Notes under the pieces: generated by a model | The model's database searches: none | Told to the model about the DNA's origin: nothing | What the model saw: only the letters and a program-made list of their open reading frames with translations | From: Corynebacterium sp. | Lineage (GTDB): Bacteria; Actinomycetota; Actinomycetes; Mycobacteriales; Mycobacteriaceae | Direction of reading: 5' to 3' | NCBI RefSeq assembly: GCF_030538285.1 | Contig: NZ_JAUNUG010000031.1 | Location: forward strand, 1 to 36,148 | DNA length: 36,148 bases | In this document: in pieces, positions 3,222-34,055 of the stretch | Position numbering within the stretch: the first letter of the stretch is position 1 | Layout of the letters: every line of letters begins with the position of its first letter | Position numbers and translations under genes: made by a program

Positions 3222-4494
3222 TCGGATCCTGCACCGGGATGAGTAGCAGGGCGCCGACCAGTAGCACCAGGCCGATGCCGAGGATGCCGAAACGGTCGGC
3301 GCCGCCCAGGGTGACAAAGAGGCCGAAGGCGATGGGGGACAGCCACGACACGGCTCGCCCGGTGGTGACATACAGCCCGAAGAGCTGCCCCTCCGTGCCC
3401 TCCGGCGCCACGCGCGAGAGGAAGGAGCGGGCGGCGGACTGGGCGGGGCCGACGAACAGGCACAGCACCAGGCCGAAGATCCAGAACATGGCGGGGCCCT
3501 CCACGAAGTAGAGCACGCCGGCCGCGCCGATCATCAGCACCAATGAGGCGATGATGATGGGCTTAGGGCCGAGGCGATCGTCGAGAAGCCCGCCCAGCAT
3601 GGCGCCCGCCGCGGCGGCGACATTGGCGGCGACGCCGAAGATGAGGACATCACCCGGGCTGAGCCCATAGACGGTGACGGCGAGGATCGCGCCGAATGTG
3701 AACACGCCGGCCAGGCCGTCGCGGAACACGGCGGAGGAGACGAGGAAGTAGACGGCGTTGCGGTCACGGTGCCAGAGCTCGCGGATGGTGCCGATGAGAC
3801 GTCGATAAGCATCCACGACGCCCTCCGTGGCGGCCGCACCGCTGGGTGCGATCTCGGGCACCCGGAACAGCACCGGCAGGGCGAAAACGCCGAACCACAC
3901 GGCCGCGAACACGGCCACCAGGCGGATGTTTAGCCCGCCCTCGGTGGGCAAAGAGAAAATGCCGCCCTCGCCGGCGACGAAACCGAAGTAGCAGATGAGC
4001 AACAGGATGATGCCGCCCGCGTACCCCATGCCCCAGCCGTAACCGGAGACACGGCCGACATTATCTTCCGTGGAGATCTGGTTGAGCTGCGCGTAGTAGT
4101 TGACCTCCGCGAACTCGAAAAGCACCGAGGCGATCGCCATGATGATGGCGCCGATCCAGAAGTAGACGGGGGCATCATTGCGTACCACGAACAGGGAGAA
4201 CATCAGCGCCACGGTGACAAACGTCCACACCGCCAGGGAGCGGCGGCGCGTTCCGTGCAGATCCGAGCGCTGCCCGATGATCGGCGCCACCACCGCGATG
4301 AGGACACCCGCCACCGCCATCACCCAGCCGTACAACGTGGCCGGCGTGTAGGCGGTGTCCAGCGTCGCGCCCACCGAATCGGTGAGGTAAACGGAGAAGA
4401 TGAAGGTCACCAGCACGGCGTTGAAGGCCGCGGACCCCCAGTCCCACAGGGCCCAGGAGGTGACGGTGACCCGGTCGGTGCGCATGGTGCTCAT
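3202..4494 (-). CDS. MFS transporter, UMF1/Atg22-like family
   Basis: Integral membrane protein of 430 aa with about 12 hydrophobic segments. It begins TVTSWALWDWGSAAFNAV, the typical opening of UMF1/Atg22-like permeases. Other family-like blocks are FEFAEVNYYAQLNQIS and GRVSGYGWGMGYAGGIILLL. The substrate cannot be read from sequence; bacterial relatives are annotated as possible amino-acid or drug exporters. The ATG at 4494 lies 9 nt after the TetR gene stop, so it is the third gene of an exporter-TetR-exporter operon. Its 3' end overlaps the end of ddh by 20 bp, so convergent transcription could form a short antisense region. Confidence 0.85.
   Translation of the reverse strand: MSTMRTDRVTVTSWALWDWGSAAFNAVLVTFIFSVYLTDSVGATLDTAYTPATLYGWVMAVAGVLIAVVAPIIGQRSDLHGTRRRSLAVWTFVTVALMFSLFVVRNDAPVYFWIGAIIMAIASVLFEFAEVNYYAQLNQISTEDNVGRVSGYGWGMGYAGGIILLLICYFGFVAGEGGIFSLPTEGGLNIRLVAVFAAVWFGVFALPVLFRVPEIAPSGAAATEGVVDAYRRLIGTIRELWHRDRNAVYFLVSSAVFRDGLAGVFTFGAILAVTVYGLSPGDVLIFGVAANVAAAAGAMLGGLLDDRLGPKPIIIASLVLMIGAAGVLYFVEGPAMFWIFGLVLCLFVGPAQSAARSFLSRVAPEGTEGQLFGLYVTTGRAVSWLSPIAFGLFVTLGGADRFGILGIGLVLLVGALLLIPVQDPTTRRVR
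3798..3810 (-). repeat. GCTTATCGACG word, copy 1 (with TC)
   Basis: Minus strand GCTTATCGACGTC, inside the UMF1-like transporter and sense to it; read GCT TAT CGA CGT (AYRR). Confidence 0.85.
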
Positions 4495-4503
4495 GTCGCG
4501 AGT

Positions 4504-5019
4504 TTAAGACGGAATTCGCTCCAGCGCAGCAGCAATGAGCTTCTCCCTCGCGCGCGCGTCGAGGGGGACGTGGTGGACGTGGTCGTGCGCCCACAGGCCG
4601 TAGGCGATCAGTTGTACGAGGTAGGCGTCGGTGGATTCGGGTTCCGGCATCCACCGCTTATCGACGTCCGCCCACACCGCCTGGAAGTCGGGGTGCTGGC
4701 GGGCGTCGAGAAGCATGAGCAGTTCGGGGAGATCGGCGTTGCGCCCCATGGACATCAGGACCGCGCGCAGGCGCTGGGCGGGGCTCAGTTCGGCGGCAGG
4801 GGCCTCGGCGAGCTCCTCCAGTTCGGCTTCCCACAGGCTGGCGAGGTGCGTATGCACGCCCAGGAGCAGTTCCTGGCGGGAGGGGAAGTGGTAGATGATG
4901 CCCGATTTAGACAGGCCGGTGGCGGTGGCCAGCGAGTCGTAGCTCAGGCCCGCCAGGCCCTCTGCGCCGACGAGCTCCACCGCGGTGGCCAGGATCTGTT
5001 CGCGTTTACTCCGGCGCAT
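4504..5019 (-). CDS. TetR/AcrR-family transcriptional regulator
   Basis: A 171-aa regulator with an N-terminal helix-turn-helix: KREQILATAVELVGAEGLAG, then SYDSLATATGLSKSGIIYHF, close to the TetR consensus ending in YHF. The C-terminal helical ligand-binding part is less conserved; SKSGIIYHFPSRQELL places it near AcrR-like repressors of efflux pumps. It overlaps the upstream DHA2 exporter gene by 14 nt and is followed 9 nt later by a second exporter. It most likely represses this operon in response to an exported compound. The operator is probably in the exporter/poxB intergenic region, where I could not define a convincing palindrome. Confidence 0.9.
   Translation of the reverse strand: MRRSKREQILATAVELVGAEGLAGLSYDSLATATGLSKSGIIYHFPSRQELLLGVHTHLASLWEAELEELAEAPAAELSPAQRLRAVLMSMGRNADLPELLMLLDARQHPDFQAVWADVDKRWMPEPESTDAYLVQLIAYGLWAHDHVHHVPLDARAREKLIAAALERIPS
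4656..4668 (+). repeat. GCTTATCGACG word, copy 2 (with TC)
   Basis: Antisense to the TetR gene, whose codons here are GAC GTC GAT AAG (DVDK). Confidence 0.85.
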
Positions 5020-6500: not shown

Positions 6501-8246
6501 ATGGCCCCTAACTTCGCACAGCAGCTCGTCGACACCCTGGAAGCCCACGGTGCGAAACGCATCTACGGCGTCGTCGGCGACAGCCTCAACCCCATCGTCG
6601 ACGCCATCGCCGACTCCTCCATCGAATGGATCCACGTCCGCAACGAGGAGGCCGCCGCCTTCGCCGCCGGCGCCGAATCGCTCATCACCGGCCGCCTCGC
6701 CGTGTGCGCCGGCTCCTGCGGTCCCGGCAACCTCCACCTCCTCCAGGGCCTGTACGACGCCCACCGCAACGGCGCCAAGGTCCTCGCCCTGGCTTCCCAC
6801 ATCCCCAGCACCCAGATCGGCTCCAACTTCTTCCAGGAAACCCACCCCGAGGTGCTGTTCTCCGAGTGCTCCGGCTACTGCGAGATGGTCAACTCCGCCG
6901 ACCACGGCGCGCGCCTCCTCCACCACGCCATCCAATCGACGATGGCCGGGGAGGGGGTCTCCGTGCTGGTGATTCCGGGGGATGTCGCCAAACAGGACGC
7001 CGGGGACCCGATGTTCCTGGAATCGACCATCGCCACGGGCCGTCCCGTGCTCTACCCGGACGCCCGCGAGGCCGCCGAGCTGGTGGAGGCCATCAACGCC
7101 GCCGACAAGGTCACGCTGTTTTGCGGTGAAGGTGTCAAGGATGCCCGCGAACAGGTCCTGGCCCTGGCCGAGAAGATCCATGCGCCCGTCGGCCACGCCT
7201 TCGGCGGCAAGATGCACATCCAGTACGACAACCCCTTCGACGTCGGCATGTCCGGCCTCCTCGGCTACGGCGCCTGCCACGACGCCATGCACGAGGCCGA
7301 CCTCCTCATCCTCCTGGGCACCGACTTCCCCTACACCGAATTCCTGCCTGCGGGCAACGTCGCGCAGGTGGACATCAAGGCCTCAAACATCGGCCGCCGC
7401 ACCACGGTCAAGCACCCGGTGGTCGGCGACGTGGGCGCCACGATCGACAACATCCTCCCGCACATCGAGGCCAAGACCGACCGCTCCTTCCTCGACGCGA
7501 TGCTGAAAAAGCACGCCGACACCCTGGAGAAAGTTGTGGAGGCGTATACGCGGGACGTCGATAAGCAGATCCCCATCCACCCCGAATACCTCGCCCACGT
7601 GCTCGACGAGCTGGCGGACGAGGACGCCGTCTTCACCGTCGACACGGGCATGTGCAACGTGTGGGCCGCCCGCTACCTCACCCCCAACGGCCGCCGCGCC
7701 GAGATCGGTTCCTTCCGCCACGGCACCATGGCCAATGCCCTGCCGCATGCCATCGGCGCCCAGTTCGTCGACCGGAATCGCCAGGTCATCAGCCTCAATG
7801 GCGACGGCGGCCTCGGCATGCTCCTCGGTGAGCTGCTCACCGTCAAACTCCATGACCTGCCGCTGAAGATGGTGGTGTTCAACAACTCCTCCCTCGGCAT
7901 GGTCAAGCTGGAGATGCTCGTCGAGGGCATGCCCGAGCATGGCACCGACCACGAGGAGGTTGATTTCGCGGCCATCGCGGCCGCCGCCGGCATCCATTCC
8001 GTGCTTATCGACGACCCCGCGCGGTTACGCGAGCAACTCGCCGCCGCGTTGGCACATCCCGGACCCGTGCTTATCGACGTCCGCACCGACCCCGACGCCC
8101 TTTCCATCCCACCGTCTATCACGTGGGAGATGCTCATCGGTTTCTCGCGCGCGGCGACCCGCTCCGTCTTCGGCGGCGGCGTCGGTGACATGGTGCACCT
8201 GGCGCGCGCCAACCTGCGCAACATCGGCGCGGCCGGCGCGGTATAG
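6501..8246 (+). CDS. poxB: Pyruvate:quinone oxidoreductase (pyruvate oxidase)
   Basis: ThDP- and FAD-dependent peripheral membrane enzyme that oxidises pyruvate to acetate and CO2 and passes electrons to menaquinone. The 581 aa match the C. glutamicum enzyme (579 aa as I recall) almost throughout: YGVVGDSLNPIVDAI, VRNEEAAAFAAGAESLITG (the ThDP-activating Glu region), SCGPGNLHLLQGLYDAHRNG, FFQETHPEVLF, HAIQSTMAGEGVSVLVIPGD and RHGTMANALPHAIGAQ. The ThDP/Mg motif starts at NGDGGLGML (GDG at residues 434-436) and ends VFNNSSLGM. The C-terminal SFGGG-type end (TRSVFGGGVGDMVHLARANL) is the likely lipid-binding region. The frame is open further upstream, but ATG 6501 matches the family N-terminus. 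Confidence 0.96.
   Translation: MAPNFAQQLVDTLEAHGAKRIYGVVGDSLNPIVDAIADSSIEWIHVRNEEAAAFAAGAESLITGRLAVCAGSCGPGNLHLLQGLYDAHRNGAKVLALASHIPSTQIGSNFFQETHPEVLFSECSGYCEMVNSADHGARLLHHAIQSTMAGEGVSVLVIPGDVAKQDAGDPMFLESTIATGRPVLYPDAREAAELVEAINAADKVTLFCGEGVKDAREQVLALAEKIHAPVGHAFGGKMHIQYDNPFDVGMSGLLGYGACHDAMHEADLLILLGTDFPYTEFLPAGNVAQVDIKASNIGRRTTVKHPVVGDVGATIDNILPHIEAKTDRSFLDAMLKKHADTLEKVVEAYTRDVDKQIPIHPEYLAHVLDELADEDAVFTVDTGMCNVWAARYLTPNGRRAEIGSFRHGTMANALPHAIGAQFVDRNRQVISLNGDGGLGMLLGELLTVKLHDLPLKMVVFNNSSLGMVKLEMLVEGMPEHGTDHEEVDFAAIAAAAGIHSVLIDDPARLREQLAAALAHPGPVLIDVRTDPDALSIPPSITWEMLIGFSRAATRSVFGGGVGDMVHLARANLRNIGAAGAV
7554..7566 (-). repeat. GCTTATCGACG word, copy 3 (with TC)
   Basis: Antisense to poxB, read there as GAC GTC GAT AAG (DVDK). 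Confidence 0.85.
8003..8013 (+). repeat. GCTTATCGACG word, copy 4
   Basis: Sense to poxB, read GTG CTT ATC GAC G (VLID), a frame different from copies 1-3. Confidence 0.85.
8069..8081 (+). repeat. GCTTATCGACG word, copy 5 (with TC)
   Basis: Sense to poxB, GTG CTT ATC GAC GTC (VLIDV), only 66 bp after copy 4. A truncated match, GCTTATCGA, also occurs at 8683-8691. Confidence 0.85.
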
Positions 8247-10491: not shown

Positions 10492-11253
10492 GTGACCGAG
10501 TACACCATCGGCGAGGCCGCCGACCTCCTCCGCATCACCACCCGCACCCTGCGCCACTGGGACCACATCGGGCTGCTCAGCCCGGGGTGGCGCACCCACG
10601 CGGACCACCGCCTCTACACGGCGGAGGACCTTGACTCCGCCTGGCAGATCCTCATCTACCGGGAGGCCGGGGTGCCGCTGAAAGAGATCGCGGAGATTCT
10701 CGCGGAGCCAGCATCGGCGCGGGAGGCCCTTACGCGGCAGCGCGACGTGCTCACCGAGAGGATCGGTCACCTGCACCGGATGGCCCGGGCAGTGGATGAC
10801 CTGTTAAAGGAGGAACAACCCATGTCCATCGAGGACCGCATGAAGCTTTTCGGCGAGCAGTGGAAGCCGGAGTTCCAGGATGAGGCCGAGCAGCGGTGGG
10901 GGGATACCCCGGAGTGGGAGCAGTCGCAGGCCAAGCAGGCGCAGATGAAGGATGCGGACTGGCAGGATGTCAAGCGCGAGCTCGATGAGTTCGTCGCTCT
11001 GCTTAGCGACGCCGCCGCGCGCGGCGTGGAGCCGGGAAGTGGAGAGGCGAAGGTGATCGTCGATAAGCATCGGGCGAGTATCCGGCAGTTTTACGACGTA
11101 TCCGCCGCGAAGCAGGTGCTGTTGGCGCGGATGTACGTCCACGACGCGCGTTTCGACGCCACCTACCAGGGCCATTCCGCCTACCTGCTCACGCTCATCG
11201 AGGCGCAGGCGCAGCTCGAGGGCGTGGACCTGGAAAACGTCGCCTGGGAATAA
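10492..11253 (+). CDS. TipA-like MerR-family regulator with TipAS ligand-binding domain
   Basis: A 253-aa protein, the same length as I recall for Streptomyces TipAL. Residues 4-70 are a MerR winged helix (YTIGEAADLLRITTRTLRHW, GLLSP). A coiled-coil helix follows (to about 108), then a TipAS-type all-helical domain: MKLFGEQWKPEFQDEAEQRW, DADWQDVKRELDEFVALL and ARMYVHDARFDATY. The family binds thiopeptides or other amphipathic drugs and activates its own promoter. Unlike TipA, there is no cysteine anywhere in this protein; the positions of the two TipA cysteines read YDVSAAKQVLLARMYV, so covalent thiopeptide capture is not possible. The open frame extends upstream, but homology begins at GTG 10492. 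Confidence 0.88.
   Translation: MTEYTIGEAADLLRITTRTLRHWDHIGLLSPGWRTHADHRLYTAEDLDSAWQILIYREAGVPLKEIAEILAEPASAREALTRQRDVLTERIGHLHRMARAVDDLLKEEQPMSIEDRMKLFGEQWKPEFQDEAEQRWGDTPEWEQSQAKQAQMKDADWQDVKRELDEFVALLSDAAARGVEPGSGEAKVIVDKHRASIRQFYDVSAAKQVLLARMYVHDARFDATYQGHSAYLLTLIEAQAQLEGVDLENVAWE
10806..10824 (+). promoter_or_regulatory. Internal RBS and ATG for a separate TipAS-like product
   Basis: AAAGGAGG (10806-10813) sits 8 nt before an in-frame ATG at 10822-10824, residue 111 of the MerR-type protein. Initiation here gives a 143-aa ligand-binding domain alone (10822-11253). The same arrangement is known for Streptomyces tipA, where TipAS is made in excess and sequesters the antibiotic. Confidence 0.7.
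11058..11068 (-). repeat. GCTTATCGACG word, copy 6
   Basis: Antisense to the TipA-like gene, read there as ATC GTC GAT AAG C (IVDK). Confidence 0.85.
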
Positions 11254-12029: not shown

Positions 12030-13469
12030 ATGACCCCGTACCCCGCCTACCCGGATTCGCCGGAACCTGCCCCGGAGCCTTTGCACCCGACGCCGGTGCC
12101 GTCGAAAAGCGCCTGGCCGCTGCGGACATGGCTGGTGGTGATCATCGTGCTGCTGTCGGGGCTGGGATTGGCGGCGAGTTCGGTGGCGGTGTCGTCGATC
12201 ATGCGCGAAGTGATGTACTCGCGCGTCGACGAAGACCTGGTCAACTCCCTCGGTGGGTGGGCGCGGAGTTCGGAGATCTTCAACACGGAGGCGTCCTCGC
12301 GGCCGCCGTCGGATTACGTGGTGATCAAGTTGTTTGAGGACGGGTCGTCGGTCGTGTTCAACGATCCGGGCTCGTTGCCCCGCTTATCGACGGTCACCGT
12401 CGGCGGCCCACCCCAAACCGTCGATTCTGCCCCCGGCGCCGACTACACCACCAGCTGGCGGGCCATCGCCCACCGCGAAGCCGGGGTGACCACCGTCGTG
12501 GCGAAGGATCTCACCCGCGAACGCACTCTCCTCTACGGCCTGGCGATGGTGCAGCTGATCATCTCCCTGCTGGTCCTGGCGGTGCTCGCGCTGCTCAGCT
12601 ACTACGTCGTGCGGCAGGCGATGGCCCCGCTGCGCGATGTGGAACGCACCGCCGGAGCCATCGCCGACGGCGACCTCGATCGCCGCGTCCCCGCCTGGCC
12701 ACGGTCGACGGAGGTCGGTCAACTCTCTCACGCGCTCAACTCGATGATCGGGCAGCTGCAGACTTCGGTGGAGTCCGCCCAGAGTAAAGAGGAACAGATG
12801 CGCCGCTTCGTCGGCGACGCCTCCCATGAGCTGCGCACCCCGCTGACCTCGGTCCGCGGGTACACCGAGTTGTACCGCTCCGGCGCCACCGACGACGTCG
12901 ACATGGTGCTCACGCGTATCGACGACGAATCCCGCCGCATGTCCCTCCTCGTCGAGGATCTCCTCGCGCTCACCCGCGCGGAAGGTTCCCGCCTGGAACT
13001 GAAGACCGTTGACCTGCTGGAACTCTCCCTGTCAGTGGCCAGCTCGGCGCGCGCCGCCTTCCCGGGGCGCCAGGTATGCGTGAAAAACGAGACCTCCTCG
13101 GTCCCCGTCGTCCGCGGCGACGCCTCCCGCCTCCACCAGGTGCTGCTCAACCTCATTTCCAACGGGCTCAACCACGGCGGGCCCGGCGCGGAGGTCACCG
13201 TCGAACTGCGTCTCGACGCCGCCGACGTCATCATCGCCGTCAGCGACAACGGCCGCGGCATGCCCAAAGACGTCGCTGCGAAGGTCTTCGAACGCTTCTA
13301 CCGCCAGGACTCGTCCCGCTCCCGCACCTCCGGTGGCTCGGGGCTGGGACTGGCGATCACCAAGTCGCTCGTGGAGAAACACGGCGGCACGATTACCGTG
13401 GACTCTGAGGAAGGCGCCGGCTCGAAATTCACCATCCGGCTGCCGCGCAAGGACGAGCAGGAGGACTAA
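12030..13469 (+). CDS. phoS: Sensor histidine kinase (PhoS-like)
   Basis: Membrane sensor kinase of 479 aa partnering the preceding regulator. A Pro-rich N-terminus (1-30) leads to TM1 (about 33-57), an extracellular sensor loop (about 58-168), TM2 (169-193), HAMP (194-245), a dimerisation domain with phosphoacceptor H266 in DASHELRTPL, and a HATPase domain: N-box NLISNGLNHG, G1 DNGRG, F-box FERFYR, G2 GGSGLGLAI. All key residues are present. The start codon directly abuts the phoR stop and the gene abuts mscS downstream, so the three are probably co-transcribed. A phosphate signal is inferred from C. glutamicum PhoS. Confidence 0.88.
   Translation: MTPYPAYPDSPEPAPEPLHPTPVPSKSAWPLRTWLVVIIVLLSGLGLAASSVAVSSIMREVMYSRVDEDLVNSLGGWARSSEIFNTEASSRPPSDYVVIKLFEDGSSVVFNDPGSLPRLSTVTVGGPPQTVDSAPGADYTTSWRAIAHREAGVTTVVAKDLTRERTLLYGLAMVQLIISLLVLAVLALLSYYVVRQAMAPLRDVERTAGAIADGDLDRRVPAWPRSTEVGQLSHALNSMIGQLQTSVESAQSKEEQMRRFVGDASHELRTPLTSVRGYTELYRSGATDDVDMVLTRIDDESRRMSLLVEDLLALTRAEGSRLELKTVDLLELSLSVASSARAAFPGRQVCVKNETSSVPVVRGDASRLHQVLLNLISNGLNHGGPGAEVTVELRLDAADVIIAVSDNGRGMPKDVAAKVFERFYRQDSSRSRTSGGSGLGLAITKSLVEKHGGTITVDSEEGAGSKFTIRLPRKDEQED
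12382..12392 (+). repeat. GCTTATCGACG word, copy 7
   Basis: Sense to phoS in the third frame, CGC TTA TCG ACG (RLST); it imposes TTA, a rare Leu codon in this GC-rich DNA. Confidence 0.85.
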
Positions 13470-14490: not shown

Positions 14491-15837
<1,347 letters not shown>

Positions 15838-16150: not shown

Positions 16151-16752
16151 GGGGTCCACTCCAGGGCGTCGAGGATGGCGTCGGCCTGGGCGGGCAGGTG
16201 TTCATGGCGCACGCCAGAAAGGTGCCGGACCTCCCCGAGTTCCCCCGACCAGGCGGGGACGATGGTGTCGGCGTCGGAGATCAGCGAGACCACCCGCGTA
16301 CCCTCCGGAATTTTCGCGGGGAAAGGCTCGGCGCTCATGAGATCCCCGGCGCCGCGGCCCATGACGAGGGGGATGGCACGTCGCAAAGCGGGGCGCGGCA
16401 GCGGCAGACCGCGGAAGCAGGCACCTACGCCGACGAGGGTGCGTACCTCGAACTCGTGCGCCAACCGCAGGCCCAACAACCCGCCCAGGGAGTGGCCGAC
16501 GATGTCGAAGGGGGTGGGGAGGGTGCGGCAGACGTCGATAAGCTCTTGCAAAGAATCATCAACGGTGACGGTGCCGCGCTGCCCGTATAACGGGGCAACC
16601 ACGGGTGCGCCTGCCGTGACCAGCGCCGCGGCGGTGCGTTCGAAATTGCCGGGCGAGCCCATCAGCCCGTGTAGCAAAAGGACCGGTGTGCCGGGGCGTT
16701 CCGGTAGCGGCGGCAGGGTGCCCCGGTGCGGCACCCAGCGCAGCCAGGACAT
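16147..16752 (-). CDS. Alpha/beta-fold hydrolase (esterase/lipase-like)
   Basis: A 201-aa soluble serine hydrolase. The oxyanion region is VLLLHGLMGSPGNF, the nucleophile is S88 in VGHSLGGLLGLRLA, the acid is probably in SLISDADTIVP and the catalytic His in VRHEHLP near the C-terminus. It is short for the fold, so the cap domain must be minimal, as in triacylglycerol lipase/permease-like esterases. The substrate is unknown. It starts 3 nt after the HIT gene stop, and its stop overlaps the ferredoxin start, so HIT, hydrolase and ferredoxin look like one operon. Confidence 0.85.
   Translation of the reverse strand: MSWLRWVPHRGTLPPLPERPGTPVLLLHGLMGSPGNFERTAAALVTAGAPVVAPLYGQRGTVTVDDSLQELIDVCRTLPTPFDIVGHSLGGLLGLRLAHEFEVRTLVGVGACFRGLPLPRPALRRAIPLVMGRGAGDLMSAEPFPAKIPEGTRVVSLISDADTIVPAWSGELGEVRHLSGVRHEHLPAQADAILDALEWTP
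16531..16543 (-). repeat. GCTTATCGACG word, copy 8 (with TC)
   Basis: Sense to the hydrolase gene, GAG CTT ATC GAC GTC (ELIDV). Confidence 0.85.
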
Positions 16753-16753
16753 T

Positions 16754-16766
16754 GCTTATCGACGTC
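16754..16766 (+). repeat. GCTTATCGACG word, copy 9 (with TC)
   Basis: Covers the last codons and TAA stop of the HIT gene (antisense; CGT CGA TAA) and the 3-bp gap to the hydrolase. Confidence 0.85.
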
Positions 16767-17213: not shown

Positions 17214-18491
17214 ATGCGCATTCTCGTGATCGGTTCGGGCGGCCGCGAACACGCCCTCCTTAAGGGCCTGGCCGCCGACCCCGCCACCACTGACCTCCAC
17301 GTCACCCCCGGCAACGCCGGTATGAGTGGCCTGGCCACCGTCCACCAGGATGCCGGCAAGGTCGACGATCCGGCCGCCATGGTCGCGCTGGCGCAGGAGA
17401 TCGGCGCTGAACTCGTCGTCATCGGCCCGGAGATCCCGCTGGTCGCGGGCGTGGCCGACGCGCTGCGTGAGGCCGGTTTCCGCGTCTTCGGCCCCTCCGG
17501 TGCCGCCGCCCAGATCGAGGGTTCCAAGCAGTTCGCCAAGGACGTCATGGCCGACGCCGGTGTGAAGACGGCCCGCGCCGAGCAGCTCGCCCCCGGTGCT
17601 TCCGATGCGGATATCGACGCCGCCCTTGACCGCTTCGGCCCCACCTGGGTGGTCAAGGACGATGGCCTGGCCGGTGGCAAGGGTGTCGTGGTCACCCCCG
17701 ACCGGGAGGCCGCCCGCGAGCACGTCCGCGCCGTCCACGAGCTGGGCAACCCGGTGCTGCTCGAGTCCTTCCTCAACGGCCCCGAGGTGTCGCTGTTCTG
17801 CCTGGTCGACGGCGAAACCGTCGTCCCGCTCATCCCCGCCCAGGACCACAAGCGCGCCTACGACAACGACGAAGGTCCCAACACCGGCGGCATGGGCGCC
17901 TACACCCCGCTGCCGTGGCTCCCCGCGGATGGCGTGCAGCGCATCGTCGACGAGGTGTGCGTGCCGGTGGCCCGCGAGATGGTGCGCCGCGGCACCCCGT
18001 ACTCCGGCCTGCTCTACGCCGGCCTGGCCTGGGACGCCGACGGCCCATGGGTCGTGGAGTTCAACGCCCGCTTCGGCGACCCGGAGACCCAGCCCATCCT
18101 CGCCCTGCTGAAGACCCCGCTGGCCGGGCTTCTCGACGCCGTCGCCTCCGGCACCCTCGCCTCCCACCCGGAGCTGGAGTGGGAGGACGCCTACGCACTG
18201 ACCGTCGTGCTCGCCGCCGAGAACTACCCGGCCGGTCCTGTCACCGGGGGTGTCATCACCGGTGACGTGGTCGCGGATCCCTCCAAGGTGCTCCACGCCG
18301 GTACCGCGCGAAACGACGCCGGCGAGCTCGTCTCCGCCGGTGGCCGTGTGCTCAACATCGTCGGCGTCGGCTCCACCCTTCAGGCCGCCCGCGATGACGC
18401 CTACGCCACCATCGAGCAGATCCAGCTCGAGGGTTCCTTCTACCGCCGCGACATCGCCCTGCCGGCCGTGGAGGGAAAGATCACCCTGTGA
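17214..18491 (+). CDS. purD: Phosphoribosylamine-glycine ligase (GARS)
   Basis: ATP-dependent step 2 of purine synthesis: phosphoribosylamine + glycine to GAR. The 425 aa show the N-terminal signature [46 protein letters not shown], the ATP-grasp loop [13 protein letters not shown] and the central [12 protein letters not shown]. They also show [20 protein letters not shown] and the metal site [12 protein letters not shown]. The start is ATG 17214; TTG 9 nt earlier lies on the promoter. The stop overlaps the aminotransferase GTG start (GTGA), indicating coupled translation. Confidence 0.97.
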
Positions 18492-20880: not shown

Positions 20881-22311
20881 GTGGCTGATAAGAAGAAGAT
20901 CGCGAATGTCCTGTCCAACCGCTACGCCTCCGCCGAGCTGACGCACCTGTGGAGTCCGGAGTACAAGATTATTCTGGAGCGCCAGCTCTGGATCGCCGTG
21001 ATGCGGGCGCAGCAGGGGCTGGGGGTGGATATCCCGAATGAGGCCGTTGATGCTTATGAGGCGGTGATCGACCGGGTGGATCTGGCGTCGATAGCTGATC
21101 GTGAGCGGGTGACCCGCCATGACGTGAAGGCGCGCATCGAGGAGTTCAACGCCCTCGCCGGCCATGAGCACATTCATAAGGGCATGACCAGCCGCGATCT
21201 GACGGAGAACGTCGAGCAGCTGCAGATCGTCCGTTCGCTGGAGTTCATCCGCGATAAGTCCGTTGCCGTGGTGGCCCGCATCGCGGACCGCGCCGCCCAG
21301 TACAAGTCCCTGGTCATGGCGGGTCGCTCCCATAACGTGGCGGCGCAGGCCACCACGCTGGGCAAGCGTTTCGCCACGGCTGCCGATGAGATGCTGGTGG
21401 CCATCGAGCGCACCGAGAATCTCCTTTCCCGTTACCCGTTGCGCGGCATCAAGGGCCCGATGGGTACCTCGCAGGACATGCTGGATCTGATGGGTGGGGA
21501 TGAGGCGAAGCTCGCCGCCCTGGAGACCAACATCGCTGATCACCTGGGTTTTGCGCGCATCTTCGACTCTGTCGGCCAGGTCTACCCGCGTTCCCTCGAC
21601 TTCGATGCCGTCTCCGCCCTGGTGCAGCTGGGTGCGGGCCCGTCGAGCCTGTCGCACACGATCCGCCTCATGGCCGGCACGGAGACCGTGACGGAGGGCT
21701 TCAAGGAGGGCCAGGTCGGTTCCTCGGCGATGCCGCACAAGATGAATGCCCGCTCGTGTGAGCGCGTCGGTGGCCTGCAGGTGATCCTGCGCGGTTACCT
21801 CACGATGGTCGCTGATCTGTCGGGCCAGCAGTGGAACGAGGGCGATGTGTTCTGTTCCGTCATCCGTCGCGTCGCTCTGCCGGATGCGTTCTTCGCGCTG
21901 GACGGCATGTTCGAGACGTTCCTCACCGTCCTCGATGAGTTCGGGGCTTTCCCGGCGATGATCAACCGCGAGCTGGAGCGCTACCTGCCGTTCCTGGCGA
22001 CCACCCGCATCCTCATGGCCGCGGTCCGCGCGGGCGTCGGCCGGGAGACCGCACACGAGGTCATCAAGGAAAACGCCGTGGCCGTCGCGCTGAACATGCG
22101 TGAGAACGGCGCGGAGCAGGATCTCATCGAGCGCCTGGCCGCGGACGAGCGACTGCCGATGTCCCAGCAGGATCTCGACGCCGCACTCGCCGACAAGCAC
22201 GCCTTCATCGGCGCTGCGGAATCGCAGGTTGAGCACGTGCTGCGCCGCGTTCAGGTGCTTGTCGACGCCCACCCCTCCGCCGCCCAGTACAAGCCCGGAG
22301 AGATTCTGTAA
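20881..22311 (+). CDS. purB: Adenylosuccinate lyase
   Basis: Fumarase-superfamily homotetramer catalysing SAICAR to AICAR + fumarate and adenylosuccinate to AMP + fumarate. The 476 aa contain the N-terminal [40 protein letters not shown], the catalytic His region [17 protein letters not shown] and the signature loop [20 protein letters not shown] with its catalytic Ser. The length is typical. The start is GTG 20881, directly after the -10/leaderless arrangement. purC follows 14 bp after the stop with its own promoter-like element. Confidence 0.97.
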
Positions 22312-22325: not shown

Positions 22326-23219
22326 ATGCGTCCTGAGCTGTCTGATTACAACCACCTCTCCGCCGGCAAGGTCCGGGAGATCTACGAGGTGGATGACACC
22401 ACCCTGCTGATGGTCGTCTCCGACCGCATTTCAGCCTACGACCACATCCTGGATCCGGAGATCCCGGACAAAGGCCGGGTGCTCACGGCGATGAGCGTGT
22501 TCTTCTTCAACGCCATCGACTTCCCGAACCACCTCGCCGGTCCGATTGATGATCCGCGGATCCCGGAGGAGGTGCTGGGCCGGGCGCTCATCGTGAAGAA
22601 GCTGAAGATGCTGCCGTTCGAGTGCGTGGCCCGCGGTTACCTCACCGGTTCGGGGCTCAAGGAGTACCAGGCCGACGGCACCGTCTGCGGCATTGAGCTG
22701 CCGGAAGGTCTGGTCGAGGCGTCGAAGCTGCCGGAGCCGATCTTCACCCCGGCCACCAAGGCGGAGCTCGGTGATCATGATGAGAACGTGAGCTTTGAGG
22801 CGGTCGTCGAGAAGCTCGGGGAAAAGCGCGCCACCGAACTTCGCGACGCCACCCTGCGCATCTACTCCGAGGCCGCCGCCCTGGCCGAAGCCAAGGGCAT
22901 CATCCTGGCGGACACGAAGTTCGAGTTCGGCCTCGACGAGGACGGCACCCTCGTGCTTGCCGACGAAGTCCTCACCCCCGATTCTTCCCGCTACTGGCCC
23001 GCGGACAGCTACGAGGAGGGGAAGGTGCAGCCGAGCTTCGACAAGCAGTATGTACGCAACTGGCTGACCTCCCCTAAGTCCGGCTGGGAGCAGTCCAATG
23101 ACACCCCGCCGCCGGCGCTGCCGGGCTCGGTGGTGGAGGCCACCCGCGAGCGCTACATCGAGGCCTACGAGCGCCTCTCAGGTGAAAAGTTCTGCACCTG
23201 GGTCGGCGAGTGCGTGTAA
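22326..23219 (+). CDS. purC: SAICAR synthetase
   Basis: Phosphoribosylaminoimidazole-succinocarboxamide synthase: CAIR + aspartate + ATP to SAICAR. The 297 aa begin with the family signature [20 protein letters not shown], then [20 protein letters not shown], the nucleotide-site [19 protein letters not shown], and [23 protein letters not shown] with [12 protein letters not shown]. The product is used by PurB, encoded just upstream. The ATG is 14 bp after the purB stop. A strong hairpin follows the stop after 17 bp. Confidence 0.97.
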
Positions 23220-24061: not shown

Positions 24062-26176
24062 ATGACTTCCATGCCGCCGACCGCCCCGCGCCACCCCATC
24101 ACCCGTGAGTTCCACGGGCGAACATTCACTGATGATTTTGAGTGGATGCGTGACAAGGAGTCCCCGGAGACCCTCGCTTACCTCGAGGCGGAAAACGAGT
24201 ACACGGCGCAGCAGACCGCTCACCTGGAGGATCTCACCGAGGAGGTCTACACCGAGATCCGCTCGCGCATCAAGGAGACGGATATGTCCGTCCCACAGCG
24301 GGCCGGCGACTGGTGGTACTACGGCCGCACCATCGAGGGCAAGGACTACGGCCTGAGCTGCCGCATCCCGGTGGTTGAAGGCCAGGACCCGTGGGTGCCG
24401 CCGGTCATCCCGGAGGAGGGCCGACCAGTGGGTGAGCAGGTACTGCTCGATCTCAACGAGTTGGCCGAGGGACACGAGTTCTTCTCCATCGGGGCGTCCT
24501 CAGTGACTACCTCGGGCCGTTTCCTGGCGTACTCCGTCGACACCACAGGAGATGAGCGTTTCACCTTACGCATCAAGGATCTGGAGTCTGGCGAGTTACT
24601 GCCGGACGTCCTGGAGAACATCTACTACGGCGCCACCTGGGCGGGGGAGGAGCACCTGTTCTACCAGCGTGTTGATGCTGCCTGGCGCCCCGATTCGGTG
24701 TGGCGCCACCGCATCGGCACCGACCCGTCTGAGGACGTATGCGTCTACCGCGAGGCCGATGAGCAGTTCTTCACGGGCGTGGGCGCCACCCGCTGCGAGC
24801 AGTGGCTGGTCATCGAGGCCGCCTCCAAGATCACTTCCGAGACCCGTGTCCTGGAGCTGGATAACCCGGAAGGTGAGTTCCGGGTGCTGTGGCCGCGCGA
24901 GAAGGGTATCGAATATGCCGTTGACCATGCGGTGATCGGTGGGGAGAGCCGGTGGATCGTCACCCACAACGCCGCCGGTGCGAACTTCGAGGTCGGCGAG
25001 TGTGGGATCGACGAGCTGCCGCACCTGCGGGATCTCAACGTGCTCATCCCGCACCGCGATGACTGGCGCATCGAGGGCGTCGACACGTTCCGCGACTTCA
25101 TTGTCGTTGCTTATCGACGCGGCGCCATCGGCCGCCTGGCCCTCATGGTTCTGCCGGAGACCGGCTACGGGCACTTCTCTGAGCTGGAGTTCGACGAGGA
25201 GCTTTACACGGCCGGCTCGTTGGGCAACCCGGAATGGGACGCCCCGGTCATCCGCATCTCTTATGGCTCCTTCACCACCCCGGCCCGGCTCTATGACTAC
25301 CGCGTGGCCACCGGCGAGTTCACTCTGCTCAAGGAGCAGGAGGTGCGTGGCGGTTACGATCCATCTGAGTACACCGCCTACCGGCTGTGGGTGACCGCAG
25401 AGGACGGCGCGGAGATTCCCGTCTCCATCGTGCACCGCGCGGACCTCGACCGCACGCAGCCGCAGCCGGCGTTGCTCTACGCCTATGGGTCCTATGAGTC
25501 GAGCATTGATCCCGGCTTCTCTGTCTCGCGGTTGTCGCTCATGGACCGTGGCATGATATTCGCCGTCGCCCATGTCCGTGGCGGCGGTGAGATGGGCCGC
25601 AGCTGGTACGACAACGGTAAGCAGTTGAGCAAGAAGAACACCTTCACCGACTACATCGCGGTGGCCGACGCACTTATTGCCAAGGGATTTACTGCCCCCG
25701 ACCGTCTTGTTGCCGAGGGCGGCTCCGCTGGCGGCATGCTGATGGGCGCGATTGCTAACATGGCTCCGGACCGTTTTGCCGGCATTCAGGCGGTGGTTCC
25801 CTTCGTCGACCCGCTGACCTCCATGCTTAAACCTGAGCTTCCTCTCACCGTCACTGAGTGGGATGAATGGGGCAACCCCTATGAGGACGCTGAGGTCTAC
25901 GACTACATGGCTTCGTATGCGCCTTACGAAAACGTGGAGGCGAAAGATTACCCGGACATCATCGCCATTACCTCGCTCAACGACACCCGCGTGCTCTACG
26001 TCGAGCCAGCCAAGTGGATCGCCCGGCTGCGGGCGACGGCCACTGGTGGCGAGTTCCTGCTCAAGACCGAAATGAGTGCTGGTCACGGAGGTGTTTCCGG
26101 GCGCTACGCCCGGTGGCGTCAGACGGCCTTCGAATACGCCTGGACGTTGCACGCTTCTAGGGCTGTGAAGGTCTGA
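24062..26176 (+). CDS. ptrB: Oligopeptidase B (S9A prolyl oligopeptidase family)
   Basis: Serine peptidase of 704 aa that cleaves oligopeptides after basic residues, normally cytosolic. An N-terminal beta-propeller (about 70-400, after DDFEWMRDKESPETLAYLEA) precedes the alpha/beta hydrolase domain. The catalytic triad is S555 in EGGSAGGMLMG, D641 in TSLNDTRV and H675 in AGHGGVSGRY. VVPFVDPLTSML, EWDEWGNP and the propeller start match PtrB rather than prolyl endopeptidase. The frame is open 63 nt upstream, but ATG 24062 fits the family. There is no signal peptide. The same gene follows purC in C. glutamicum as I recall. Confidence 0.94.
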   Translation: MTSMPPTAPRHPITREFHGRTFTDDFEWMRDKESPETLAYLEAENEYTAQQTAHLEDLTEEVYTEIRSRIKETDMSVPQRAGDWWYYGRTIEGKDYGLSCRIPVVEGQDPWVPPVIPEEGRPVGEQVLLDLNELAEGHEFFSIGASSVTTSGRFLAYSVDTTGDERFTLRIKDLESGELLPDVLENIYYGATWAGEEHLFYQRVDAAWRPDSVWRHRIGTDPSEDVCVYREADEQFFTGVGATRCEQWLVIEAASKITSETRVLELDNPEGEFRVLWPREKGIEYAVDHAVIGGESRWIVTHNAAGANFEVGECGIDELPHLRDLNVLIPHRDDWRIEGVDTFRDFIVVAYRRGAIGRLALMVLPETGYGHFSELEFDEELYTAGSLGNPEWDAPVIRISYGSFTTPARLYDYRVATGEFTLLKEQEVRGGYDPSEYTAYRLWVTAEDGAEIPVSIVHRADLDRTQPQPALLYAYGSYESSIDPGFSVSRLSLMDRGMIFAVAHVRGGGEMGRSWYDNGKQLSKKNTFTDYIAVADALIAKGFTAPDRLVAEGGSAGGMLMGAIANMAPDRFAGIQAVVPFVDPLTSMLKPELPLTVTEWDEWGNPYEDAEVYDYMASYAPYENVEAKDYPDIIAITSLNDTRVLYVEPAKWIARLRATATGGEFLLKTEMSAGHGGVSGRYARWRQTAFEYAWTLHASRAVKV
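25109..25119 (+). repeat. GCTTATCGACG word, copy 10
   Basis: Sense to ptrB, GTT GCT TAT CGA CG (VAYR). Confidence 0.85.
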
Positions 26177-30463: not shown

Positions 30464-32224
30464 ATGAGCTACACCAAGTCCCGCCGCTTGGCGACGGTCG
30501 CAGCTGCAACCATTGCCATCGCTGGCCTCGGTCTCGGCACCGCCCCCATGGCGATGTCCGCCACGGCGCCGACCAACCTGTCTGCGGTGACCATCACCGA
30601 GGACACCGGTACCCTGACCATCCACAAGTACGAAGGCCCCACCGTCGGTGAGAACCCGGACGGCGAGATGCTGCAGCCTGGCGACGAGAACCTGCCGGCC
30701 GATGCACAGCGCCTCGCGGGTGCCACGTTCACCATCTACCGCGTCACCGACGTCGACCTGAAGACCAACGCTGGCTGGGAGGCCGCCAAGGCCTACTACG
30801 CCCAGGGCACTGTCCCGCCGGCCGATGCCAACATGGAGCAGGTTGCTACCGTTACCTCCTCCGCCACGGGCGGCGTGACCACTCCGGCTCTGCCGGTCGG
30901 CCTCTACTACGTCGTGGAGACCGCTCCGCCGACCACCGAGGACGGCACCACCTACACCGCTGCCGTGCCGTTCTACGTCACCCTGCCGATGACCAATGCC
31001 GAGAACAACGCGTGGAACTACAACGTCCACGTGTACCCGAAGAACGACAAGGTCACCAAGCCGCACAAGGCAGTCCTCGATGGCAACACCGGCGTCGAGA
31101 ACCAGGACGCCCCGGAGGTTGGCGACAACCTCACCTACCGCGTCTCCGCTGACATCCCCAACTACGGCGACGTCGTTGGCACGCCGGACGCCAATGGCTA
31201 CACCGGGCCGGACGGGGTCGTAGACCACAACGACCTCAACATGCTGTGGGTCGGTGACTCCTTCAACGATCACGTCGAGTTCCAGTCCGTCGCTGGAGTG
31301 CGTGTCGGTGTTACGGGTGACCCGACCACCTCCACCGATGGCACCCTGCTCACCGCGGGAGTGGACTACACCGTCACCACCAACGCGGCCGGCATGACCA
31401 TCGTCATGCTGACCGATGCTGGCCTGGACAAGGCTGCCCCGCTGGGCGGCTCCAAGATCGTCGTTGACTTCGTCACCGAGGTCACTTCCGTCCCTGATTC
31501 CGGCGAGATCAAGAACCAGGCTGTTGTCTGGCCGGGTTCGAAGCCGTCCGCCGGTGACAATGTTCCCACCCCGGACCCGGAGAACCCGCCGCCGCCGCCG
31601 GGAGACCCGACCAACGAGGTTGTGTCCAAGTTCGGCAAGATCCGCATCAATAAGGTCGGTGTCACCGGTACCGGCGATGAGACCGAACCGCTCGCAGGTG
31701 CTACCTTCGAGGTCTACCGTGCAGTCGGTCAGACCGAAGGTGCTACCACCGAGTCGGGCTCCTGTGCTCCTGCTGACCTCCAGGGCCAGACCCCGCTGGA
31801 GACCATCGTCTCTGACGCCGATGGCAACGCTGTCACCTCCAAGTTCCTGCGCCTGTCGAGCTGGTACAACGATGGCGTCGAGCAGTCCGCTACCGGTAAC
31901 AACGACGGCTACCTCGATGGTGCCCAGTACGCCAACAAGTACGGCTGGCAGAACTACTGCCTCGTGGAGATCGTCTCCCCGGAGGGCTACCAGCTGCTGG
32001 CTGAGCCGGTGAAGTTCTCCCTCACCGAGGCTGGCACCAGCACCGATAACACTGCCTGGACCTGGACCACCGTGACCAACCAGGCCGACAACATCGAGAA
32101 CGAGCTGCCGCTCACCGGTGGACAGGGCCTGGCCCTGCTCTCCCTGGCCGGCCTCGTGCTCGTCGGCGGCGGTGTCGCCTACTACACCATGTCTTCCCGT
32201 CGTGAGGACAAGGCCACCGCTTAG
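30464..32224 (+). CDS. Major pilin, SpaA type
   Basis: 586-aa shaft subunit of a sortase-assembled pilus. Signal peptide 1-32 (likely cut near MSA-TAP). Pilin motif WNYNVHVYPK (W184 to K193); the lysine K193 is the nucleophile joined to the next subunit's Thr. E-box-like YYVVETAPP (E152) in the N-domain, and YCLVEIVSPEGYQLL in the C-terminal CnaB-type domain, expected to help internal isopeptide bonds. A Pro-rich linker (PENPPPPPGDP) separates domains. Sorting signal LPLTG (549-553), hydrophobic helix and positively charged tail. RBS AGGAG is about 8 nt before the ATG. Codon use is strongly biased to frequent codons, fitting an abundant protein. Confidence 0.92.
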   Translation: MSYTKSRRLATVAAATIAIAGLGLGTAPMAMSATAPTNLSAVTITEDTGTLTIHKYEGPTVGENPDGEMLQPGDENLPADAQRLAGATFTIYRVTDVDLKTNAGWEAAKAYYAQGTVPPADANMEQVATVTSSATGGVTTPALPVGLYYVVETAPPTTEDGTTYTAAVPFYVTLPMTNAENNAWNYNVHVYPKNDKVTKPHKAVLDGNTGVENQDAPEVGDNLTYRVSADIPNYGDVVGTPDANGYTGPDGVVDHNDLNMLWVGDSFNDHVEFQSVAGVRVGVTGDPTTSTDGTLLTAGVDYTVTTNAAGMTIVMLTDAGLDKAAPLGGSKIVVDFVTEVTSVPDSGEIKNQAVVWPGSKPSAGDNVPTPDPENPPPPPGDPTNEVVSKFGKIRINKVGVTGTGDETEPLAGATFEVYRAVGQTEGATTESGSCAPADLQGQTPLETIVSDADGNAVTSKFLRLSSWYNDGVEQSATGNNDGYLDGAQYANKYGWQNYCLVEIVSPEGYQLLAEPVKFSLTEAGTSTDNTAWTWTTVTNQADNIENELPLTGGQGLALLSLAGLVLVGGGVAYYTMSSRREDKATA

Positions 32225-32233
32225 TCGGTGACC

Positions 32234-32258
32234 GGGAGGCCCCGCCCTGGGGCCTCCC
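32234..32258 (+). terminator. GC-rich hairpin between major pilin and sortase genes
   Basis: A perfect 10-bp stem, GGGAGGCCCC / GGGGCCTCCC, with loop GCCCT, 10 bp after the major pilin stop. There is no T-run. It may act as a partial terminator or protect the upstream mRNA 3' end, so that more pilin than sortase is made. Confidence 0.6.
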
Positions 32259-32330
32259 ACCCCCAAACTTGCACAACTAAATAGCACCACCCGGAATATC
32301 ACCCGGATCCTTCACCACCTGGAGTACACA

Positions 32331-33254
32331 GTGACCCATGCCCTGATCACCAAACCTCAGCCATCGGCTGGCGGTGCGGCGAAGCGCCGCAAGCTCATCA
32401 TCACGATGCTGCTCATCCTCGCTGGCGTGGCCATCCTCATCTACCCGGTGGTGGCGACGCAGTACAACAACGTCAAGCAGACGGAGTTTGCGCGTCAGTA
32501 CAACTCGAACTTGAAGACCTTTTCCACGGAGGAACTCGAGGCCAACTTGGCCCAAGCCCGCGAGTACAATGCGACCCTGCCGGGCATCCCGATTCTTGAC
32601 CCGTGGCTGAAGATTGCTGAGGACCTACCTCGCTCCCAGGCCTACGACGAGTATCTGTCTTACCTGGCGCTGACGGATGTCATGGCGCGCGTTCGAGTTC
32701 CTTCCGCCAACATTGACCTGCCTATCCGCCATGGCACAACTGATGAGGTCATTGAGAACGGTGCCGGCCACCTCTACGGCACCGGCCTGCCGGTCGGCGG
32801 CGAGGGCAACCACCCCGTGATCACCAGCCACTCGGGCATGCCCTATGCCACGCTCTTCGATAACTTGACCAAGGTGAAGGAGGGTGACCTCATGTTCATC
32901 GAGGTGAACAATGAGACCCTCGCCTACCAGGTCGATGAGATCAACGTCGTGCTGCCGAACGAGACGGAGAAGCTCAACCGCGAAGAGGGCCGCGACCTTC
33001 TCACTCTTTTCACCTGTACTCCTTATGGCATCAATACCCACCGCCTGCTCGTCCGCGGTGAGCGCGTCGAGTACACCCCGGAAATGGAAAATCAGCTTAA
33101 CGAGAAGATTCCGTTCCGGATCGAGCCGTGGATGTGGATCTTCCTCGGAGCCGCGCTCCTCAGCTTGCTTGCTCTCCTGTGGGTGGTCCGCCGCGAGCGC
33201 AAGCGCCGTATGCAGCGCGCCGCTTTCGACATGGAGGTCGAGAATGAGATCTAA
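32331..33254 (+). CDS. Class C sortase (pilus polymerase)
   Basis: Membrane transpeptidase of 307 aa that cuts LPxTG pilins between Thr and Gly and joins them to the pilin-motif lysine of the next subunit. N-terminal TM (22-42), lid motif DPW (90-92), beta-barrel with H167 (ITSHSGMP), catalytic C229 (TLFTCTPYG) and R238 (NTHRLLVRG), and a C-terminal TM (about 267-288), which is the class C pattern. The start is GTG 32331 with GGAG about 6 nt upstream. Its end overlaps the minor pilin start by 11 nt. It is the only sortase in the window; a housekeeping sortase for wall anchoring must lie elsewhere. Confidence 0.94.
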   Translation: MTHALITKPQPSAGGAAKRRKLIITMLLILAGVAILIYPVVATQYNNVKQTEFARQYNSNLKTFSTEELEANLAQAREYNATLPGIPILDPWLKIAEDLPRSQAYDEYLSYLALTDVMARVRVPSANIDLPIRHGTTDEVIENGAGHLYGTGLPVGGEGNHPVITSHSGMPYATLFDNLTKVKEGDLMFIEVNNETLAYQVDEINVVLPNETEKLNREEGRDLLTLFTCTPYGINTHRLLVRGERVEYTPEMENQLNEKIPFRIEPWMWIFLGAALLSLLALLWVVRRERKRRMQRAAFDMEVENEI

Positions 33255-34053
33255 TATTCGGGCGCGGGCATCCCTCGCCATCGCTGGTACTGCCGGTGCC
33301 CTTATGCTCGGTGTCATTCCGCTTGCCGACGCCATCGTCATCACCGGCAACACCTCAAACGTCAGCATCGAACAGATCGACGTCAACCGCACGGCGACAC
33401 TGATCCTGCACAAGAAGGCCCCGAACCCGTACAACACCACCCCGGTCGCAGACTTGCCGGCGGGTACGATCTCGAATGTCACGTTCACCGTGCAGAGAAT
33501 CGCCGGAGTGGATCTGGGAACCCAGGAAGGCTGGGACTGGGTCGGCAATGCCGACGTGGACGATGTCCTAGACGGTCCCTTCGATCTCGAGTTCAGCGCT
33601 AAAACGGACTACGAAGGCTTCGCGCGCATCAGCGGCGTCCCGGTCGGGGTGTACCTGGTGAAAGAGGTCGGGATTGATAACCCCTCGCATCTCTACCGAA
33701 AGTCCGCGCCTTTCCTGCTCACCGTGCCTAGCGGTTCTGCAGACGGCACGTTCTGGGACTACGAGATCATCGTCAACACCAAGGATGCGCCGACGGTTCC
33801 GCCGACGACGCCGGATACCCCGCCCCCGCCGGTAACTCCTCCTAGCACGCCGCCGGCCACACCACCCGCTACTCCGCCAGCTACCCCCACGACCACTCCG
33901 CAGCAGCCGGATGCTCCTGCGGAGCCGGGCCAGCCCGGCCAGCCGGGGCGCACCGGACTGCCCATGACCGGTGCCAGCGTGCTCGGCGCCGTTGGGCTGG
34001 GTGCCGCGCTCATCGTGGCGGGTGCGTCGATGGCGCGACGGCGACGTCGATAA
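33244..34053 (+). CDS. Minor/basal pilin (SpaB-like)
   Basis: 269-aa secreted subunit. Signal peptide 1-30 (ends LADA), a SpaA-type N-domain with FTVQRIAGVDLGTQEGW, E-box-like GVYLVKEVG (E141), and a pilin-motif-like WDYEIIVNTK (W171 to K180). A Pro/Thr-rich stalk (182-232, repeated TPPA) leads to sorting signal LPMTG (239-243), a TM and a five-Arg tail. The small size and stalk fit a base or minor pilin that links the shaft to the wall. ATG 33244 overlaps the sortase gene by 11 nt. The final codons CGT CGA TAA lie inside a GCTTATCGACG-word copy. Confidence 0.88.
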   Translation: MRSNIRARASLAIAGTAGALMLGVIPLADAIVITGNTSNVSIEQIDVNRTATLILHKKAPNPYNTTPVADLPAGTISNVTFTVQRIAGVDLGTQEGWDWVGNADVDDVLDGPFDLEFSAKTDYEGFARISGVPVGVYLVKEVGIDNPSHLYRKSAPFLLTVPSGSADGTFWDYEIIVNTKDAPTVPPTTPDTPPPPVTPPSTPPATPPATPPATPTTTPQQPDAPAEPGQPGQPGRTGLPMTGASVLGAVGLGAALIVAGASMARRRRR

Positions 34054-34055
34054 GC
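34043..34055 (-). repeat. GCTTATCGACG word, copy 11 (with TC)
   Basis: Covers the end of the minor pilin gene (CGT CGA TAA) and 2 bp beyond; the only copy in the last 11 kb. Confidence 0.85.

Follow-up and report, generated by a model that had tools for sequence, protein, structure and literature searches.

Introduction

Two bacterial families, the Neisseriaceae and the Pasteurellaceae, are named in a 2025 paper as the only ones known to recognize their own DNA by an uptake word (PMC12616744). The DNA uptake sequences (DUS) of Neisseriaceae, whose receptor is ComP, are short words in hundreds to thousands of copies per genome, at one per 400-1100 bp, and two papers describe clade-wise dialects with a conserved core that are barriers to transformation (PMC3630211) as well as islands marked by a low DUS density (PMC7371117). 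The uptake signal sequences (USS) of Pasteurellaceae are enriched self-words of about 9 nt and of two types, with a receptor that is only predicted (PMC12616744). Here we describe a word, GCTTATCGACG, in a stretch of 36,148 nucleotides from a Corynebacterium genome (contig NZ_JAUNUG010000031.1 of assembly GCF_030538285.1; the whole stretch is called the window below), which shares several traits of DUS and USS: it is short, non-palindromic and strongly over-represented across the genome, it comes in clade-wise dialects around a conserved core, it is scarce in a small sample of prophage-like regions and inserted elements, and its hosts encode competence machinery, albeit a trait that does not discriminate. 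We consider it probable, at roughly three chances in four, that this word is a DNA uptake sequence, of the same functional kind as DUS and USS, that evolved independently in Corynebacterium and has dialects.

The Corynebacterium word is unrelated to the words of both families, and its hosts belong to another phylum. In Corynebacterium, unlike the Neisseriaceae, there are species in which no word was found, uptake is what we infer, and the fuller motif GCTTNNCGACG occurs once per ~1.6 kb in the genome of the window (G000). The pilus genes found, in searches aimed at Flp/Tad rather than at ComP or a type IVa pilus, are of the Flp/Tad type, unrelated to the pilus type of Pasteurellaceae. The actinobacterium Micrococcus luteus has a com and tad gene set like that of Corynebacterium and requires its Flp/Tad genes for transformation, and tad occurs frequently together with comEA/comEC in actinobacteria; the term 'uptake sequence' is nowhere in the text of the paper on M. 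luteus (PMC4322843), and M. luteus itself was not searched for a word.

The word is over-represented on both strands throughout the genome

The window holds 11 exact copies of GCTTATCGACG, six on the plus and five on the minus strand, each at the place claimed by the original prediction, which had been made from the letters of the window (Table 1). Allowing one mismatch raises the count to 19 (mean 0.44 and maximum 3 in shuffles), and the fuller motif GCTTNNCGACG has 24 copies in the window. Throughout G000, a 2.95-Mb draft of 94 contigs (the window is contig C55) with a completeness of 96% and a contamination of 6.7%, for which comEC places C. pollutisoli, C. lemuris and C. hylobatis among the nearest named relatives, the word occurs 782 times (393 forward, 389 reverse), whereas the control, the word read backwards, is found 0 and 1 times on the two strands. 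A sample of 358,666 bases of this genome (the window plus 20 stretches) contains 113 copies (57 plus, 56 minus), against 0.4 expected from a third-order Markov model. The comparison with such a model, which the original prediction had proposed, thus gives a strong excess, and the copies are by no means confined to this region.

One-base variants of the word are also enriched in the G000 sample, above all at base five (C 40, T 18, G 11) and more weakly at base three (G 17); the spectrum of near misses peaks around the consensus, with tolerant inner bases and an almost invariant CGACG part, and the same pattern is seen in G009, the complete chromosome of another Corynebacterium species. The site is therefore better described by GCTTNNCGACG than by GCTTATCGACG, and this motif is present 253 times in 377,096 bases of G000 (6.6 expected) and 231 times in 418,746 bases of G009 (13.1 expected). 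The form in which the word had been proposed, TGCTTATCGACGTC, proved slightly off: seven window copies do extend to ...GTC and eight do have a T before them, but the leading T and the trailing TC are weak preferences, codon choice contributing to the last C, and two inner positions vary. In the samples of both genomes, the bases adjoining the word show a weak preference (G is avoided before it) and C recurs every third base downstream because of the favoured Leu-Ile-Asp reading frame; the flanks otherwise vary, and no shared sequence of the sort carried by an interspersed repeat or mobile element was found in them beyond the word. Neither regular spacing nor an excess of close pairs was found in 260 kb of G000, where 13 gaps are shorter than 100 bases (9.8 expected) and the spacing is random-like.

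Words that impose polarity on the chromosome, such as the FtsK-orienting polar sequences (KOPS), are skewed to the leading strand. The Corynebacterium word is not: besides the even strand counts in G000, a 400-kb sample of one complete genome, G009, taken as 20 stretches at even distances, contains 42 plus and 47 minus copies, with no replichore skew between the first half (19 plus, 21 minus) and the second (23 plus, 26 minus). These halves correspond to the replichores given an origin close to the contig start, which GC skew suggests. These counts uphold the argument, already made in the original prediction, that a lack of strand bias speaks against KOPS- and Chi-type words. A Chi-type recombination hotspot would account for some further features, given that Chi words are likewise enriched in the core genome, poor in mobile DNA and species-specific, but the excess of both the word and the fuller motif is much larger than is known for Chi, and we regard a hotspot or polar word of this sort as improbable.

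The copies are selected as DNA

Most copies lie within genes: 97 of 113 in the G000 sample, where three others run over the end of a gene and 13 fall between genes (coding density predicts 8.3), and 73 of 89 in G009, with 16 intergenic (9.5 expected). The favoured frame is sense Leu-Ile-Asp, used by 56 of the 97 genic copies in G000 and 42 of the 73 in G009, and other frames occur too, on both gene strands. Within this tripeptide the choice of codons is extreme, CTT ATC GAC (CTTATCGAC) being used for 61 of its 93 occurrences in the G000 sample and for 44 of 74 in G009, against 3.3 and 3.6 expected from codon usage, and 130 of the 673 CTT codons of the G000 sample fall within the motif. In the window, two copies provide the TAA stop codon of a gene, both in antisense at the gene end, and a third imposes a TTA codon, all three as had been pointed out; a simple gene caller made for this analysis, from which our gene assignments derive, places the copies within or over the end of nine genes rather than the ten first counted. 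We conclude that the copies are selected as DNA, not as protein, in keeping with what the prediction had deduced from the window. HIP1, the highly iterated palindrome of cyanobacteria, is also a genome-wide over-represented word inside genes, but it is palindromic and is not known to show dialect switching of the Corynebacterium kind.

Distribution of the word across the genus

In a family-wide search of 331 genomes, comprising 36 of Corynebacterium (the window's own included) and 295 of 30 other genera, the count of GCTTATCGACG stayed at seven or below in all of the 295. Among 242 Corynebacterium genomes, by comparison, at least 20 copies were found in 165 and fewer in 77, of which 73 have 10 or fewer, and the copy number ranges from none to 782 among the species of the genus. 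Counts in related species, another of the checks first suggested, thus reveal a genus-wide enrichment and a near absence in the 30 other genera.

Clade-wise dialects of the word

An unbiased word search in low-count genomes brought up a second word, GCTTNNCGATG, which we call the GATG word in distinction from the GACG form represented by GCTTATCGACG (the A word). It is present in 490-1337 copies in 14 of the 242 genomes, in 211-223 copies in three and in 12-165 copies in the other 225, and the 14 rich genomes carry at most 45 copies of the A word each. Within the GACG form an inner base varies between genomes, with A and G copies numbering 285/1 in G200, 292/5 in G098, 26/272 in G133 and 181/486 in G234. 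A third word, TGACGYCGCG, has 1106 copies in G012, the next highest count among the 242 genomes being 103. The two main dialects keep GCTT..CGA.G in common, and the third word of G012 is not clearly derived from it. As judged for each named species from a single comEC locus of ~21 kb, species using GACG include C. striatum, C. tuberculostearicum, C. minutissimum, C. propinquum, C. glaucum and C. pilosum, those using GATG include C. macginleyi and C. phoceense, and C. phocae, C. spheniscorum and C. uropygiale show neither.

In a quick tree of TopA and a DEAD helicase from 39 genomes (40 tad loci, one of them incomplete), with support from the Shimodaira-Hasegawa-like approximate likelihood-ratio test (SH-aLRT) only, 13 GATG-rich genomes and two low-copy ones form one starred clade, and G028, which has few copies, falls outside it. 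Nested in this clade, as one starred group, are three GACG genomes, G219, G181 and G239, with 77-103 copies of the A form and a residue of 125-154 copies of the GATG word; this placement is most simply read as a return from GATG to GACG.

Extending a small first comparison of C. tuberculostearicum and C. macginleyi with four more pairs and controls, we followed the dialects site by site. In the tad region, seven of nine aligned GACG sites of G219 are GATG in G001, the remaining two being neither, and all seven aligned GATG sites of G001 are GACG in G219, with two sites per side unaligned. The same substitution is rare outside the motif, where G001 has CGATG at only 4 of 43 CGACG positions of G219, and G219 has CGACG at 4 of 80 CGATG positions of G001 (7/7 motif sites versus 4/80 outside, Fisher P = 6e-8).

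Such flips bear on the idea that a DNA methyltransferase or another modification system acts at the word and turns it into a self-mark. A fixed word with two unspecified inner bases does resemble some modification motifs, and methylation can mark DNA for uptake in Campylobacter; restriction-modification sites, however, are usually avoided rather than enriched, and one-base flips at many sites between sister clades need a drive that such a system does not give by itself, which leaves a modification site a very unlikely explanation.

C. macginleyi (G102) has the fewest GCTTNNCGATG copies of the 14 rich genomes, and several of its sites look decayed to TGATG. Four GCTTNNTGATG sites were seen in 15 kb of G102 where relatives mostly have GCTTNNCGATG, possibly through decay or as a further dialect. 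We also observed, in a sample of 140-158 kb from the word-less genome G007, a weak excess of GTGGCGTCGA (10 versus 0.9 expected) and CGACGCCA (38 versus 11).

Scarcity in prophage-like regions and an inserted element

A terminase search of 80 word-rich genomes gave matches in four genomes (five matches, four of them above the family cut-off), and these four matches were examined. The prophage-like region of G149 has no copy of the fuller motif in 40 kb, and no exact copy of the 11-mer where 3.3 would be expected from the 217 copies in this ~2.6-Mb genome. A region of G038 near 1.56 Mb holds a single copy of the motif over 40 kb, compared with 28 over 80 kb of control sequence from the same genome. 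Around the terminase gene of G044 lies a 12.2-kb gap without the motif (49 copies in 80 kb of controls), and a gap of 13.8 kb is found at the terminase gene of G038 near 2.96 Mb.

The comEC gene of C. pollutisoli VDS11 is broken up by an element of ~37.7 kb (L228:10001-20618, L155:1-11014), apparently inserted into this competence gene. Judging by the look of the sequence, the element carries a putative large serine recombinase beside one of the two edges of comEC, along with putative genes for type I restriction-modification and a transposase and a MobC-like gene. It contains one copy of the motif in the ~20 kb seen, against nine in ~21 kb of flanks. The avoidance of prophages and islands that the original prediction had proposed to test is thus supported by scarcity in the regions examined, a small sample judged by GCTTNNCGACG.

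A binding site for a nucleoid protein or another organiser of the chromosome, such as an SMC loader or a nucleoid-occlusion factor, should likewise be missing from prophages and inserted elements; it would also suit the even, strand-neutral spread over the chromosome, and its dialects would reflect co-evolution of protein and site. A range from none to 782 copies within one genus, with word-less beside rich lineages, would nevertheless be odd for chromosome maintenance, and the copies in the 20 stretches of G009 do not appear to centre on origin or terminus; we consider this explanation unlikely.

Competence and pilus genes

ComEC and a TadA-like ATPase were found in each of 50 genomes (20 high-count, 30 low-count) and DprA in 32 of 32. 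A ComEA-like protein is encoded just upstream of ComEC in most of 30 loci read, and 75 of 80 named loci contain one; Flp, TadE and TadF are present in 39 of 40 tad loci. Two word-less genomes have a much weaker DprA match, G029 (E = 1.9e-16; G029:C1:1842183-1842692) and G113 (1.4e-37; G113:C12:221750-222433), compared with a best match of 1e-56 or better in the other 30, which fits a loss of competence in these two genomes. DprA looks normal in the word-less G043, G007, G011 and others. The C-termini of ComEA in G029 and G113 also look divergent.

Of the 20 word-rich genomes, 18 have a ComEC frame of 464-612 aa, another has one of 682 aa and in the last the frame is split; frames of at least 653 aa occur in 19 of 30 low-count versus 1 of 20 high-count genomes. 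We treat this difference in length as phylogeny rather than as a link to the word, the five GATG species comprising four with a short ComEC (G001, G027, G097, G102) and one with a long one (G107). Many, though not all, of the long-ComEC genomes also have a weaker TadA match. The split case is G229 (529 copies of the word), whose comEC is in two overlapping frames (G229:C13:122007-122782) through a frame break or a sequencing error.

A probable uptake word with dialects

Copy counts, strand balance, codon choice, dialects, one-base flips and the deserts in prophages support the leading idea of the original prediction, an uptake-sequence-like word that acts as DNA; the nucleoid-protein and modification explanations account less well for the on/off distribution and the one-base switches. 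We infer uptake, a receptor and molecular drive, which could work together as follows. A sequence-specific surface receptor, most likely part of the Flp/Tad pilus or working with it, would prefer DNA with GCTTNNCGACG, and the preferred DNA would then pass ComEA/ComEC and be recombined by DprA/RecA. Fragments bearing the word would be taken up and recombined more often, so that alleles bearing it by chance would spread by molecular drive; the drive would fill the genome with the word, and DNA of kin would be preferred over foreign DNA. If the specificity of the receptor changed, the sites would follow one base at a time, giving rise to the dialects GACG, GATG and perhaps the third word.

Several observations weigh against an uptake word, or limit the case for it. 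None of the A word, the G-form, the GATG word and the third word is found in 52 of the 242 genomes, by thresholds of fewer than 20 (A word), 150 (GATG word) and 40 (G-form) copies and with G012 excluded; A totals were available for all 242, the G-form was tallied in 35 and the GATG word in 18, the others being judged by eye to lie below threshold. De novo searches of 140-158 kb each in the word-less G043, G029 and G011 found no comparable word. We rejected the presence of com genes as an explanation of the word: ComEC, TadA and DprA are present equally in word-less genomes, and the com, dprA and tad genes, not being confined to word-rich species, are therefore by themselves no predictor of it. 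No determinant of dialect could be singled out in the helix-hairpin-helix (HhH) domain of ComEA (54 GACG, 6 GATG loci), and in Flp, TadE and TadF the columns that best covary with dialect have overlaps of 0.21-0.26, worse than the controls TopA and DEAD helicase (0.12); the single best dialect-separating column is in TadA (overlap 0.06), a presumed cytoplasmic ATPase. The site-by-site switch goes the same way but is less complete in the four further pairs, where one species has GATG opposite 3/10, 3/8, 5/10 and 6/10 aligned GACG sites of the other; these pairs share species or regions and hence are not independent; no aligned site is GACG in both members of any of them, and one site is GATG in both in three pairs. 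The prophage-like regions are a small sample taken without annotated edges, G149 had no usable control stretch (the intended ones were contigs of ~400 bases), and by the exact 11-mer the region of G038 near 1.56 Mb does not differ from its control (one copy in 40 kb, two in 80 kb), the 11-mer being too rare in G038 to show a depletion. Finally, a literature search judged by titles and abstract starts found neither an uptake word nor natural transformation described for Corynebacterium, with many subscription papers and all bioRxiv preprints outside the search; within that scope, it agrees with the original prediction, which knew of no such word in the genus.

Corynebacteria have a waxy outer mycomembrane. 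We think it quite likely that they represent a third bacterial group, in another phylum, with independently evolved self-recognition by an uptake word, with at least three words and one dialect return, in which transformation is widespread and dialects are barriers to gene flow. If so, this would be the third independent case, genus-wide and in Actinomycetota, and natural transformation would be predicted in skin, nasal and environmental corynebacteria. It would hold a key for genetic work, in which donor DNA should carry the dialect of the recipient; sister species with sites that differ by one base would amount to an evolutionary experiment, and one could test whether self-words evolve in bacteria whose incoming DNA has to cross an outer membrane.

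Sites and neighbouring genes in the window

The copies in the window are listed in Table 1. A SpaA-type pilus cluster occupies positions 26605-34053, with a 1253-aa SpaA-domain protein, a pilin, a sortase and one further gene without assignment. The original prediction had described it as free of the word apart from its very last codons, which holds for the exact 11-mer and fails for GCTTNNCGACG, present in the pilin gene and in the gene after the sortase. The match of the pilin to an LPXTG anchor is weak.

Table 1. Exact copies of the word and variant copies of the fuller motif in the window, with gene context
Site	Position	Strand	Context
exact GCTTATCGACG	3800..3810	-	sense in gene 3202-4485(-)
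exact GCTTATCGACG	4656..4666	+	antisense in gene 4504-5019(-)
exact GCTTATCGACG	7556..7566	-	antisense in thiamine pyrophosphate (TPP)-enzyme gene 6501-8246(+)
exact GCTTATCGACG	8003..8013	+	sense, VLIDD frame, TPP-enzyme gene 6501-8246(+)
exact GCTTATCGACG	8069..8079	+	sense, VLIDV frame, TPP-enzyme gene 6501-8246(+)
exact GCTTATCGACG	11058..11068	-	antisense in gene 9997-11253(+)
exact GCTTATCGACG	12382..12392	+	sense, TTA codon used, histidine-kinase gene 12030-13469(+)
exact GCTTATCGACG	16533..16543	-	sense, ELIDV frame, gene 16147-16752(-)
exact GCTTATCGACG	16754..16764	+	antisense, gives TAA stop of gene 16756-17175(-)
exact GCTTATCGACG	25109..25119	+	sense, prolyl-oligopeptidase gene 24011-26176(+)
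exact GCTTATCGACG	34045..34055	-	antisense, gives TAA stop of gene 33244-34053(+)
variant GCTTTCCGACG of GCTTNNCGACG	380..390	-	
variant GCTTCTCGACG	3579..3589	-	
variant GCTTCTCGACG	4704..4714	-	
variant GCTTAGCGACG	11001..11011	+	
variant GCTTTTCGACG	12100..12110	-	
variant GCTTCCCGACG	15093..15103	-	
variant GCTTTGCGACG	16379..16389	-	
variant GCTTCTCGACG	18128..18138	+	
variant GCTTGTCGACG (G-form)	22257..22267	+	
variant GCTTCTCGACG	22805..22815	-	
variant GCTTGCCGACG	22955..22965	+	
variant GCTTGGCGACG	30486..30496	+	inside pilin gene 30464-32224(+)
variant GCTTGCCGACG	33321..33331	+	in gene 33244-34053(+) after sortase

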